Assembly: GCA_027624075.1 (NCBI GenBank)
Contig: JAQBUH010000003.1
Span: forward strand, 88,569-152,568
DNA length: 64,000 nucleotides
From: Chloroflexota bacterium
GTDB taxonomy: Bacteria > Chloroflexota > Dehalococcoidia > Lucifugimonadales > Lucifugimonadaceae
Direction: 5' to 3'
Positions 11,766 through 15,144 of this stretch are shown piece by piece. Position 1 is the first letter of the stretch, and every line of letters begins with the position of its first letter. The notes beneath the pieces are model-generated. The model had not been told where the DNA came from, did not search any database, and was given only the letters and a program-made list of their open reading frames with translations. Position numbers and translations under genes: made by a program.

Positions 11766-11883
11766 AGCGGCGTTTCGCCCCGCGCATATTAGAGTTAACG
11801 TTTGCGAACGGCGTAACTACTCGCGACCCCGGCCGCGAGCCGTACGCGACTTTGGGCCAATCTGTTCTCATGGAGTGTTGCCT

Positions 11884-13164
11884 TTGGACCGCAAGCGTTC
11901 ATCTGAGTTGTTCGAGCAGGCGCAAAAGCTGATCCCCGGTGGCGTCAATAGCCCTGCCAGGGCGTGGAACTCCGTGGGAGGCGTGCCCATCTTCTTCGCC
12001 CGCGGCCAGGGGTCGCATGCGTGGGACAGTGACGGAAACTCATACATCGACTATGTCTGTTCCTGGGGGCCGCTGATCCTGGGGCACGCTCGCCCTGAGG
12101 TGATCAAGGCGGCTCAGGACGCGGCCGCCCTGGGGACCAGTTTCGGCGCGCCGACTGAGCTCGAGGTGAGGATGGCCCGGCTCGTTGTGGATGCGGTGCC
12201 GTCGATAGAGATGGTGCGGTTTGTGAACTCAGGGACAGAGGCGACGATGTCCGCTCTGAGGCTGGCGCGGGCCTACACGGGGCGCAACCGCATAATCAAG
12301 TTTGACGGCGGCTACCACGGCCACGATGACGCTCTGCTTGTCAAGGCGGGTTCCGGCGTCGCAGCGCAGGGCATCGCAACATCCGCCGGAGTCCACCCTG
12401 ACTACGCGGCGGCCACAATGGTGGCCGACTTCAACAGCGTGGAGTCTGTTAAGAGGTTGCTTGAGGCGCACCGCGACGAAGTGGCTGCGATCATCGTTGA
12501 GCCGGTTGCCGGCAACATGGGCGTTGTTCCGCCCGCGCCGGGTTTCCTCGAAGGGCTGCGAGAGCTTGCGACGGCACACGGCGCTCTGCTGATATTCGAC
12601 GAGGTGATCTCCGGATTCAGGGTCGCGTACGGCGGCGCACAGTCGGTCTATGGCGTGAAGCCTGACATCACGTGTCTTGGCAAGATCGTTGGCGGCGGCT
12701 TTCCGGTCGGCGCTTATGGCGCAAGCGAAGAGATCATGCGGACTGTCGCTCCGCTCGGGCCGATGTACCAGGCCGGCACGCTCTCAGGTAACCCTGTTGC
12801 GATGGCTGCCGGCATTACGACGCTTGAACTGCTGAAAGAGCCGGGTGTCTACGAGGGGATTGCAGATACGACAGAGCGGCTGGTGAGTGGGCTGCGGAGC
12901 CTGTTTGCGCAGGCTGAGGCGCCGGCGCAGATCAACAGCGTCTGCGGAGCTTTTACCGTGTTCTTCAATGCCCGTCCTGTGACCGACATGGCGACCGCCT
13001 CAGCGAGCGACATGGACGCCTTCGCACGCTTTTTCCATGCCATGACAGAGCGAGGCGTATACCCGCCGCCATCGCAGTTCGAAGCGTGGTTCGTATCGGC
13101 CGCGCATACGGCGGATGATGTCGAGCAGACCCTGGCCGCGGCGCGGGATGCGCTGACCAGCTAG
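11884..13164 (+). CDS. hemL: Glutamate-1-semialdehyde 2,1-aminomutase
   Basis: A PLP enzyme that converts glutamate-1-semialdehyde to 5-aminolevulinate, acting directly after HemA. Features are LIPGGVNSPARAW at the N-terminus, FVNSGTEATMSALRLAR, FDEVISGFRV and the PLP-lysine segment LGKIVGGGFPVGAYG. I chose the TTG at 11884 (MDRKRSSELFEQAQ), because GGAG lies 8 nt upstream and family members begin there; the tracked GTG at 11875 overlaps that site. The length is about 426 aa, normal for the family. Confidence 0.95.
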   Translation: MDRKRSSELFEQAQKLIPGGVNSPARAWNSVGGVPIFFARGQGSHAWDSDGNSYIDYVCSWGPLILGHARPEVIKAAQDAAALGTSFGAPTELEVRMARLVVDAVPSIEMVRFVNSGTEATMSALRLARAYTGRNRIIKFDGGYHGHDDALLVKAGSGVAAQGIATSAGVHPDYAAATMVADFNSVESVKRLLEAHRDEVAAIIVEPVAGNMGVVPPAPGFLEGLRELATAHGALLIFDEVISGFRVAYGGAQSVYGVKPDITCLGKIVGGGFPVGAYGASEEIMRTVAPLGPMYQAGTLSGNPVAMAAGITTLELLKEPGVYEGIADTTERLVSGLRSLFAQAEAPAQINSVCGAFTVFFNARPVTDMATASASDMDAFARFFHAMTERGVYPPPSQFEAWFVSAAHTADDVEQTLAAARDALTS

Positions 13165-13598
13165 CCACGTCGCTCACAGAGTTCACGCTGTTCACAATCC
13201 GGCACGCCGGGCCGTGCAGGGTGCCCGAGCCTGTTTGCATTCGAGGCGAGTTCCGACTCTTACCTCCTTCCTGACCTGCGCCGCAGCCGTTCGGTTGCCG
13301 CGCCCGGGCCTTTTCCGATCTCATATTGCGCGTTCTCCCTGTGGCGACTGCGGGTACGCAGTTAGTCCAAACGCCCGATAGTTCCCCGTCAAGTCACCGA
13401 TTACGCGTTGAGTGCCGGTGTCCAGAGTGGTGTGAGTGAGCCCCAACCGGTGTGGTGTTGCTGTCTCTCATGCGTTGTGCGTGTGAGCCGGTGACGAGGG
13501 ACCCGGCGGTTGGCAGTTGCGACAGCTTGTACAGGGGGGAGCCCGGGAGCCCGGGCGCCTTGCGAGCGGCACAGACGGCTCAGACAGAGGGGATAGTT
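13165..13598. other. Intergenic region between hemL and the archaellin gene
   Basis: There are 434 bases with no convincing gene. The tracked ORF from 13452 is only an in-frame upstream extension of the archaellin gene. I see a GC-rich dyad GCCCGGGAGCCCGGGC at 13541-13556 and the archaellin ribosome binding site AGAGGGG before 13599. No tRNA, riboswitch or clear promoter was recognised. Confidence 0.5.
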
Positions 13599-14312
13599 AT
13601 GAGTAAGAGGGGAACCGGTTCTCGTGAGCGAGGCATCACGGGGCTAGAGACTTCTATCGTGCTGATAGCGTTCGTGGTGGTCGCGAGCGTGTTTGCCTTC
13701 ACAGTTCTATCTGCGGGTGTTTTCTCTTCCGAGGCGGCCAAGCAGACGATCTTCGCCGGCCTAAAAGAGACCCGTTCACGCCTTCGCCAGAACGGCAGCG
13801 TCTTTGCGTTCAGCGCCCAGGCTGGCACGACGCAGACGGTGTACAAGATGGTGTTCATCGTGTCGAACTCTCTGGCAGGCGAGCCGCTCGACCTGACGCC
13901 GCCGTACACGCAGGACGACAGCGGGCTCGACCCTGACTTCGACGCCACTGCGATTCCTGCGACGATCATCTCTTACGCAGACGAAGACCAGCGCAAGGGA
14001 GAGGTGCCGTGGACGGTGCAGTTCATCGGCAACAACAACGGCGACCTCCTGATGGAGGGCGGGGAGAAGGCAGAGATCACGGTGTGGCTGATGGACCGTA
14101 ACCATGCGATCCTCGAGGTTGACCCGAACGCGGTGCAGGTGATGGACACCTCGACTGCGAACGGCGGTGGCGTCGGCGGGCTCGAGGCAGGCGACGTGCT
14201 GATAGGCAAGAGCACACGATTCGTGCTTGAGATGTCGCCTCAGATTGGCGCCTCGACGACGATCCAGCGCTCCATCCCGCCTGGGCTGCGGCAGGCGATG
14301 AACCTTAACTAG
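13599..14312 (+). CDS. Archaellin (archaeal-type flagellin) family protein
   Basis: A 237-aa protein whose N-terminus is a class III (type IV pilin-like) signal: the basic SKRGTGSRERG is followed by ITGLETSIVLIAFVVVASVF. This is the hallmark of archaellins (FlaA/FlaB, PF01917), which are processed by a prepilin peptidase and assembled into a rotating archaellum. Family resemblance continues through SSEAAKQTIFAGLKETRSRL. The C-terminal beta domain includes GEVPWTVQFIGNNNGD. The start is the ATG at 13599 with AGAGGGG upstream. No other archaellum genes (motor ATPase, platform protein) are nearby, so it is a solitary structural gene here. A pilin-like adhesin is the alternative. Confidence 0.85.
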   Translation: MSKRGTGSRERGITGLETSIVLIAFVVVASVFAFTVLSAGVFSSEAAKQTIFAGLKETRSRLRQNGSVFAFSAQAGTTQTVYKMVFIVSNSLAGEPLDLTPPYTQDDSGLDPDFDATAIPATIISYADEDQRKGEVPWTVQFIGNNNGDLLMEGGEKAEITVWLMDRNHAILEVDPNAVQVMDTSTANGGGVGGLEAGDVLIGKSTRFVLEMSPQIGASTTIQRSIPPGLRQAMNLN

Positions 14313-14464
14313 CGGGCTGCGGACCGACTGCCGCCACCCTCCTGCCAGCCCGGATGTGTAGCGCCCTGTAATGGGGCGCCAACGGGCCGGCCGCACGGGA
14401 CGCAAAGTAAGGCACCCCCCTCGGCGATTGCGTCCGGCGGTCCGGTTCCCGCTGCAACTCAAGA

Positions 14465-14498
14465 TGCGCCCTTCCCGGTGAACTCCAGGGAGGGCGCA
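14465..14498. terminator. Bidirectional terminator-like hairpin between archaellin and pgpA
   Basis: TGCGCCCTTCCC and GGGAGGGCGCA pair around an 11-nt loop with one bulged T. The element lies between the convergent archaellin and pgpA genes. There is no long T-tract on either side, so it may act as a barrier or processing hairpin rather than a classical intrinsic terminator. Confidence 0.5.
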
Positions 14499-14507
14499 TT
14501 GCGGTTT

Positions 14508-14966
14508 CTAAAAGAAGATAAGCCGGATCGCGTTCAGGACCACTGCTCCGAGTACACCGGCTGCGACATCGTCGAGCATCACGCCAAGCCCGCCGTGGAC
14601 CTGCTCCAGTCTGCGGATCCCAAGCGGCTTCAGGATGTCAAGCACCCGGAACAGGAAGAAGCCCGCCAGCAGCCAGCCCCAGGTGGCCGGTAGAAACGCC
14701 ACAGTGACCCAGACACCGACCCATTCATCTATCACGACGCGCTTGGGGTCAGGGTCTGCCCTGGTCCCGGCTTTCTCGGCGGCCCACACGCCGGCCAGGG
14801 CCGTCACCCCGATCATGGCGAAAAACCACGGCGAGTCACCGGTCCCTGCGAACGGCAGCGCCCAGTAGAGCAGCAGCGCCGCGGCGCTGCCGGCTGTGGC
14901 CGGGGCTATTGGCCATAGGCCTGAGCCGAGACCGGTTGCAACGAGTTCGACGGGAACGCGCCTCAA
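14508..14966 (-). CDS. pgpA: Phosphatidylglycerophosphatase A
   Basis: A membrane enzyme dephosphorylating phosphatidylglycerophosphate to phosphatidylglycerol. Signature segments are ATGLGSGLWPIAPATAGS at the N-terminus, VVIDEWVGVWVT, FRVLDILKPLGI and GGLGVMLDDVAAGVLG, with about four hydrophobic helices. The tracked ORF is 206 aa, but its first 54 residues look like non-coding translation. I place the start at the TTG at 14966 (RRVPVELVATGLG), giving 152 aa, close to the family norm. It lies downstream of the coiled-coil gene and is separated from it by a strong terminator. Confidence 0.85.
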   Translation of the reverse strand: MRRVPVELVATGLGSGLWPIAPATAGSAAALLLYWALPFAGTGDSPWFFAMIGVTALAGVWAAEKAGTRADPDPKRVVIDEWVGVWVTVAFLPATWGWLLAGFFLFRVLDILKPLGIRRLEQVHGGLGVMLDDVAAGVLGAVVLNAIRLIFF

Positions 14967-15090
14967 GTATGTGCAGTCTCCGTGTGCGATGTTGTCGGAA
15001 ATCACCGCCGGCCGCCGCTGGACAGAGCGTGATTCCTGGCGATTTATAGCAGGGCGATCTCTGGCGAACAGACTACGCCTCGCCCCAAAC

Positions 15091-15122
15091 GAAAAGGCCC
15101 GCCGGATCAACTCCGGCGGGCC
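15091..15122 (-). terminator. Rho-independent terminator after the coiled-coil gene
   Basis: On the minus strand GGCCCGCCGGA-loop-TCCGGCGGGCC forms a perfect 11-bp stem with a 5-nt loop, directly followed by TTTTCGTTT. It lies 22 nt past the stop of the coiled-coil gene and would end the rsmD-coaD-coiled-coil transcript. Confidence 0.85.
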
Positions 15123-15144
15123 AGGCACAGGCGACGGGAGCTAC

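Follow-up and report, generated by a model that had tools for sequence, protein, structure and literature searches.

The window is a stretch of 64,000 nucleotides (G000:C5:88569-152568) from G000, a marine MAG of 2.30 Mb that is 89% complete, is distributed over 60 contigs and belongs to the SAR202 clade of Chloroflexota. It contains an intact archaellin gene, whose features are summarized in Table 1. The gene is preceded by hemA and hemL and followed by pgpA, a conserved gene, a coaD-like gene, an rsmD-like gene and lysS; these neighbors are bacterial. A promoter and terminator scan at the gene returned no signal exceeding chance.

Table 1 Features of the archaellin locus and of the deletion scar. 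Coordinates refer to the window unless a contig is named
Feature	Position	Strand	Evidence
hemL, left neighbor	11875..13164	+	PF00202 (aminotransferase III); synteny
69 bases upstream of the archaellin gene, identical to the terminal 69 bases of contig C60	13365..13433	+	
Ribosome-binding-site-like GAGGGG, 6 nt 5' of the ATG	13587..13592	+	read from sequence
Archaellin gene (ArlB-type), 237 aa, intact; ATG at 13599, stop ends at 14312	13599..14312	+	PF01917, TIGR02537, PDB 9i5h, fold match
Class III signal peptide MSKRGTGSRERG, predicted cut between G12 and I13, E at mature +5	13599..13634	+	sequence
N-terminal hydrophobic/polymerisation helix (residues 13-58)	13635..13772	+	AlphaFold helix 15-58
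C-terminal beta domain (residues 59-237)	13773..14309	+	model strands between 62 and 224; Foldseek archaellins
Inverted repeat 3' of the archaellin gene	14464..14499	+	
pgpA, right neighbor	14508..15128	-	PF04608, 132 bits
Scar fusion ORF (Dpp5-like N-terminus and RR2 C-terminus), 152 aa, still open	L235:10435-10893 = G000:C59:28434-28892	-	

The N-terminus of the encoded protein reads MSKRGTGSRERG up to the predicted cleavage site and ITGLETSIVLIAFVVVASVFAF beyond it. With basic residues, a glycine at the cut, a hydrophobic stretch and a glutamate at position +5 (ITGLE), it has the characteristics of a class III signal peptide, and G12, I13, T14, G15 and E17 are invariant across 32 aligned sequences. 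In archaellins in general, prepilin peptidase cleaves after the glycine, and the C-terminal beta domain is exposed on the filament. The Pfam family PF01917 (Arch_flagellin) is matched with 57.1 bits (E 3.5e-15, cut-off 29.5 bits) by residues 12-224, taking in profile positions 1-162 and hence the whole family model. The NCBIfam model TIGR02537 (archaellin/type IV pilin N-terminus) is matched with 29.7 bits, above its cut-off of 20 bits. In a control search of 14 genomes, PF01917 matches were found solely in four archaea. The best PDB chain is 9i5h (E 4.4e-32), followed by archaeal archaellins. The AlphaFold model (pLDDT 81.6) predicts a long N-terminal helix and a beta domain, as in solved archaellins, and archaellins fill all top 15 Foldseek ranks at moderate TM-scores (0.36-0.45 by query length). 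The window gene is a genuine archaellin within a bacterial chromosome, as the first-pass annotation had proposed.

That a bacterial type IV pilin has been mistaken for an archaellin is extremely improbable. The N-terminal helix and the signal peptide type are common to both protein classes, but Pfam, NCBIfam, PDB and fold searches all lead to archaellins and rule out a pilin identity, no bacterial pilin family was matched in the Pfam and NCBIfam profile search, and the genome is devoid of a PilC/Tad platform. The first-pass annotation had named two signs of a pilin, namely missing motor genes and clustering with type IV pilins. The former applies to this genome, but in the phylogenetic reconstruction the protein clusters with the motor-cluster archaellins of close relatives.

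The gene order hemA-hemL-archaellin is also present in genome G047 and in the closed genome of Candidatus Lucifugimonas marina JH1073 (G017, CP046147.1), which belongs to the same family as the window organism. Contamination or misbinned archaeal DNA was ruled out by the bacterial contig and by this hemL-adjoining position in a closed genome. In the congener G004, a single 270-kb contig carries, about 74 kb apart, one archaellin between hemL and mutS2 (copy A) and the arrangement rlmN-SelA-archaellin-luxR-archaellin-pgpA (copy B). The window has a single copy flanked by hemL and pgpA. Its surroundings resemble the hemL-linked side of G004 up to about position 14500 and the pgpA-linked side thereafter, and the sequence comparison indicates that the junction between positions A and B lies there. 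Contig C60, whose last 69 bases recur upstream of the window gene, ends shortly past a second archaellin and a LuxR-like stretch and contains much of the A-to-B interval. This identity is the mark of a collapsed repeat or of a recombination point. On the simplest reading, the hemL-archaellin-pgpA join may have been created by the assembler merging two near-identical copies; the alternative is a true recombination between copies A and B, and the opposite join, luxR-archaellin-mutS2, is found in the congener G006. The existence of the gene is firm, but a single copy between hemL and pgpA may not reflect the chromosome.

In an archaellin tree of 47 rows, the window copy falls into a clade of 20 members (support 100/100) that is free of motor-cluster copies. 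All members are solo copies located outside the motor locus, and they derive from congeners, L. marina, G047, G057 and G071. The clade is nested among archaellins of the same bacterial family and groups with motor-linked archaellins of relatives. Besides the hemL-linked position, the rlmN-SelA-archaellin position is shared by contig C60 of G000, congeners, L. marina, G047 and G057. Since the clade is supported at 100/100 and its positions are common across genera, the window gene is no recent arrival but has descended vertically, and the archaeal transfer predates the genus. The gene is accordingly no evidence of a fresh interdomain transfer, which the first-pass annotation had invoked. The solo copies of a genus cluster together irrespective of their position: constraining the hemL-linked copies of both genera to fall together against the SelA-linked copies costs 39 lnL units (p-AU 0.0003). 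Gene conversion among solo copies would account for this grouping. Silent cassettes converting motor-linked copies were considered as well and are unsupported; the solo copies are set apart in a clade of their own (100/100), and homogenisation is seen only among them.

The PF01917 search identified only three archaellin-type genes in G000. The third encodes a very divergent archaellin-like protein (RGFSAIEVAIFMIAATVVATVSAV...; G000:C4, L005:5533-6396) with 30.6 bits, just above the cut-off. Several response-regulator receiver proteins are encoded in the same contig region, and a partner with 68.5% identity is located at a contig end of G006 (L111).

No motor gene was found near the window archaellin, in line with the solitary position already described for it, or anywhere in the assembly. 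Profile searches of the G000 assembly returned neither a T2SSF domain (ArlJ, type IVa pilus or Tad platform) nor an ArlDE domain (ArlD/E); the ArlDE profile, which also misses Sulfolobus, was not used alone as a motor marker. T2SSE gave a sub-threshold match only. ArlI and ArlJ of G004 had no match in G000. They are present in five of six congeners, with copies 82-94% identical to those of G004 in G001-G003 and G005, but absent from G000 and from G006, whose sole ArlI match is a weak one to its pilus-type ATPase. The G004 cluster is a true arl locus, with 611 bits for the ArlI equivalog (cut-off 550) and 253 bits for FlaH (cut-off 194). When the congener arl-locus DNA (L068:1900-16000), which covers ArlH at the DNA level, was compared with G000, only the far downstream flank was matched. 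The genome-wide search for arl motor genes recommended in the first-pass annotation was thus negative for these queries; the prepilin peptidase it advised looking for is present as one Peptidase_A24 with a bacterial-type N-terminal domain on contig C15. A PilC-like protein of about 400 aa is carried by G001, G002, G004, G005 and G006, and G000 is without any T2SSF protein.

In G004 and G002, the arl locus comprises, in this order, archaellins, an ArlC/D/E-like gene, ArlG, two ArlF-like genes, ArlH, ArlI, ArlJ, a small ORF, a PAS kinase, the regulators RR1 and RR2, and a methyltransferase; the ArlF and ArlC/D/E-like genes, neither of which matched a family model, are named by position. In G000, the methyltransferase side is kept on contig C59, where all that remains of RR2 is a C-terminal piece of ~50 residues. 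An N-terminal fragment of a Dpp5-like peptidase (~105 residues) is fused in frame to this remnant, and the fusion lies well inside a contig of 69 kb. Neither the PAS kinase nor RR1 nor the upstream regulator is matched anywhere in G000. Absence and scar together show that the motor locus of G000 (archaellins, an ArlC/D/E-like gene, ArlG, ArlF, ArlH, ArlI, ArlJ and the adjacent kinase and regulator) is deleted. With ArlI, ArlJ, ArlD/E and any T2SSF platform absent and the arl locus scarred, the archaellum-like filament that the gene had been taken to imply does not follow from it. The scar in G006 is a stub of an archaellin, about 36 codons long, that directly adjoins the small ORF normally following arlJ; both neighbors are in place. 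The scars of G000 and G006 differ, and the losses therefore look independent; judged from these sequences, the motor was probably lost in two separate events within the genus.

The motor could alternatively exist in the organism and be missing from the MAG; the bacterium would then be archaellated and the window gene simply one of its additional archaellins. A completeness of 89% leaves room for this, and assemblies break at archaellin repeats, as illustrated by the 69 bases that C60 and the window have in common. This explanation is nevertheless very unlikely: the assembly includes the downstream arl flank, where the shortened regulator and another gene form a fusion well inside the contig, the kinase is missing together with both regulators close to it, and the same kind of loss is seen separately in G006. 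Other family members without a detected motor keep one to four archaellin genes, some of them broken, although their assemblies may be incomplete.

Two families of repeated sequences were observed in passing. A sequence of ~40-85 bases (query L106:1809-1932) is present in about 50 copies on both strands of G000, probably in intergenic regions (e.g. C10:33240-33307, C41:9099-9179, C48:11411-11494 and C5:6785-6869). G006 has a different recurring sequence, which matches L106:2173-2216.

The window gene is under strong purifying selection, the same as its relatives. Omega on the window tip is 0.062, compared to 0.063 in the background, and a model with omega=1 is worse by 31 lnL units and rejected. 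The neutral share of the synonymous time of the window tip is at most about 4-5%, and a joint test of both G000 copies puts this limit at about 3-4%. As no relaxation is seen on the window tip, the gene was functional until recently, if not to this day. The RR2 remnant, used for an age estimate, has 40 codons and yields a flat likelihood. Decay is found elsewhere, in the sister genus. The solo archaellin of G057 has an omega of 0.245 versus 0.118 (2dlnL 6.1, one of six tests), and broken archaellins were identified in G061 (in-frame stop, L119:6528-6983), G042 (truncation, L087:7473-8072) and also G047 (C19:82972-83163). No ArlI or ArlJ was found in G061, G042 or G047; G047 keeps both its hemL and its SelA solo locus, with low omega.

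Because solo archaellins decay in some lineages where no motor is found, the reading as a relic is favored, which falls short of proof for G000. We consider it likely that the window gene is a recently orphaned leftover, still undecayed in sequence, of a vertically inherited solo subfamily after deletion of the motor. Against this stand the 60 contigs of an incomplete MAG, in whose unassembled part a motor could sit, and the absence of decay, which is also compatible with continued selection. Less probably, the solo archaellin is kept for a motor-independent role, e.g. as a protein that is anchored in the membrane, processed by the one prepilin peptidase left and located at the surface or in the envelope. 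In agreement with such a role, the same solo loci stay intact after two motor losses that look independent, relaxation is lacking on the G000 and G006 tips, the peptidase is retained, and both loci of G047, where no motor was found, have low omega. Such a role is unlikely, however: these genes are decaying in other genomes for which no motor was detected (the stop in G061, the truncation in G042, the raised omega in G057), G000 has no assembly ATPase or platform for any filament, and a recent loss explains the intactness equally well. The broader claim that solo archaellins are now archaellum-independent and selected as membrane or envelope proteins in motor-less bacteria is distinctly doubtful.

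A recently orphaned leftover would have the following history. The solo subfamily would have been inherited vertically in SAR202 (Lucifugimonadaceae) since an archaellated ancestor. For archaellins in general, it is established that ArlI and ArlJ pull the protein from the membrane and that the N-terminal helices pack into the filament core. In motor-bearing relatives, the solo archaellin probably serves as a minor or condition-specific filament subunit that would be cut after G12 by prepilin peptidase, extracted by ArlI/ArlJ and packed via its N-terminal helix. In G000, the bacterial-type prepilin peptidase could perhaps still process the window archaellin, and with no platform found, the product would stay a single-span membrane protein.

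G000 and its sister genome show the reverse of archaellum import: the organelle was deleted, apparently twice, and outlying archaellin genes remain. A lone archaellin gene is consequently no proof of a swimming organelle. G000 offers a setting for asking whether an archaellin acts without its motor; if a role has been retained, a filament protein that crossed domains would have been re-used without its machine.

Archaella in Chloroflexota had been reported before, as the first-pass annotation noted. The archaellum was transferred from archaea into Chloroflexota, its machinery is encoded by 243 Chloroflexota genomes, and a working bacterial archaellum was demonstrated in Litorilinea aerophila in 2025 (PMC12488501). 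For Ca. L. marina (SAR202), archaellum genes were published in 2023, comprising six tandem and six scattered flaB copies (PMC10444878). Finding an archaellin in such a genome thus matches expectation, and there is precedent for scattered copies. The kind of gene is known from close relatives; what is added here are the two deletion scars, alongside which dispersed archaellins persist. No directly relevant report turned up when the literature was searched for archaellins orphaned by motor loss.

The closest counterparts are the scattered flaB genes of Ca. L. marina, which belong to the same family and the same archaellin subfamily (65-68% identity) and share the hemA-hemL-archaellin and rlmN-SelA-archaellin positions with the window genome. 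Unlike the latter, Ca. L. marina retains a motor locus with ArlI and ArlJ. By sequence and fold, the closest solved structure is PDB 9i5h, the bacterial archaellum of L. aerophila, but there the archaellin is encoded in a complete locus and belongs to a demonstrated swimming organelle. Archaeal archaellins (5tfy, 7txi, 8cwm, 8qx4) are alike in N-terminal signature and overall fold, but share only 14-22% identity in fold alignments and come from another domain of life and another gene context.
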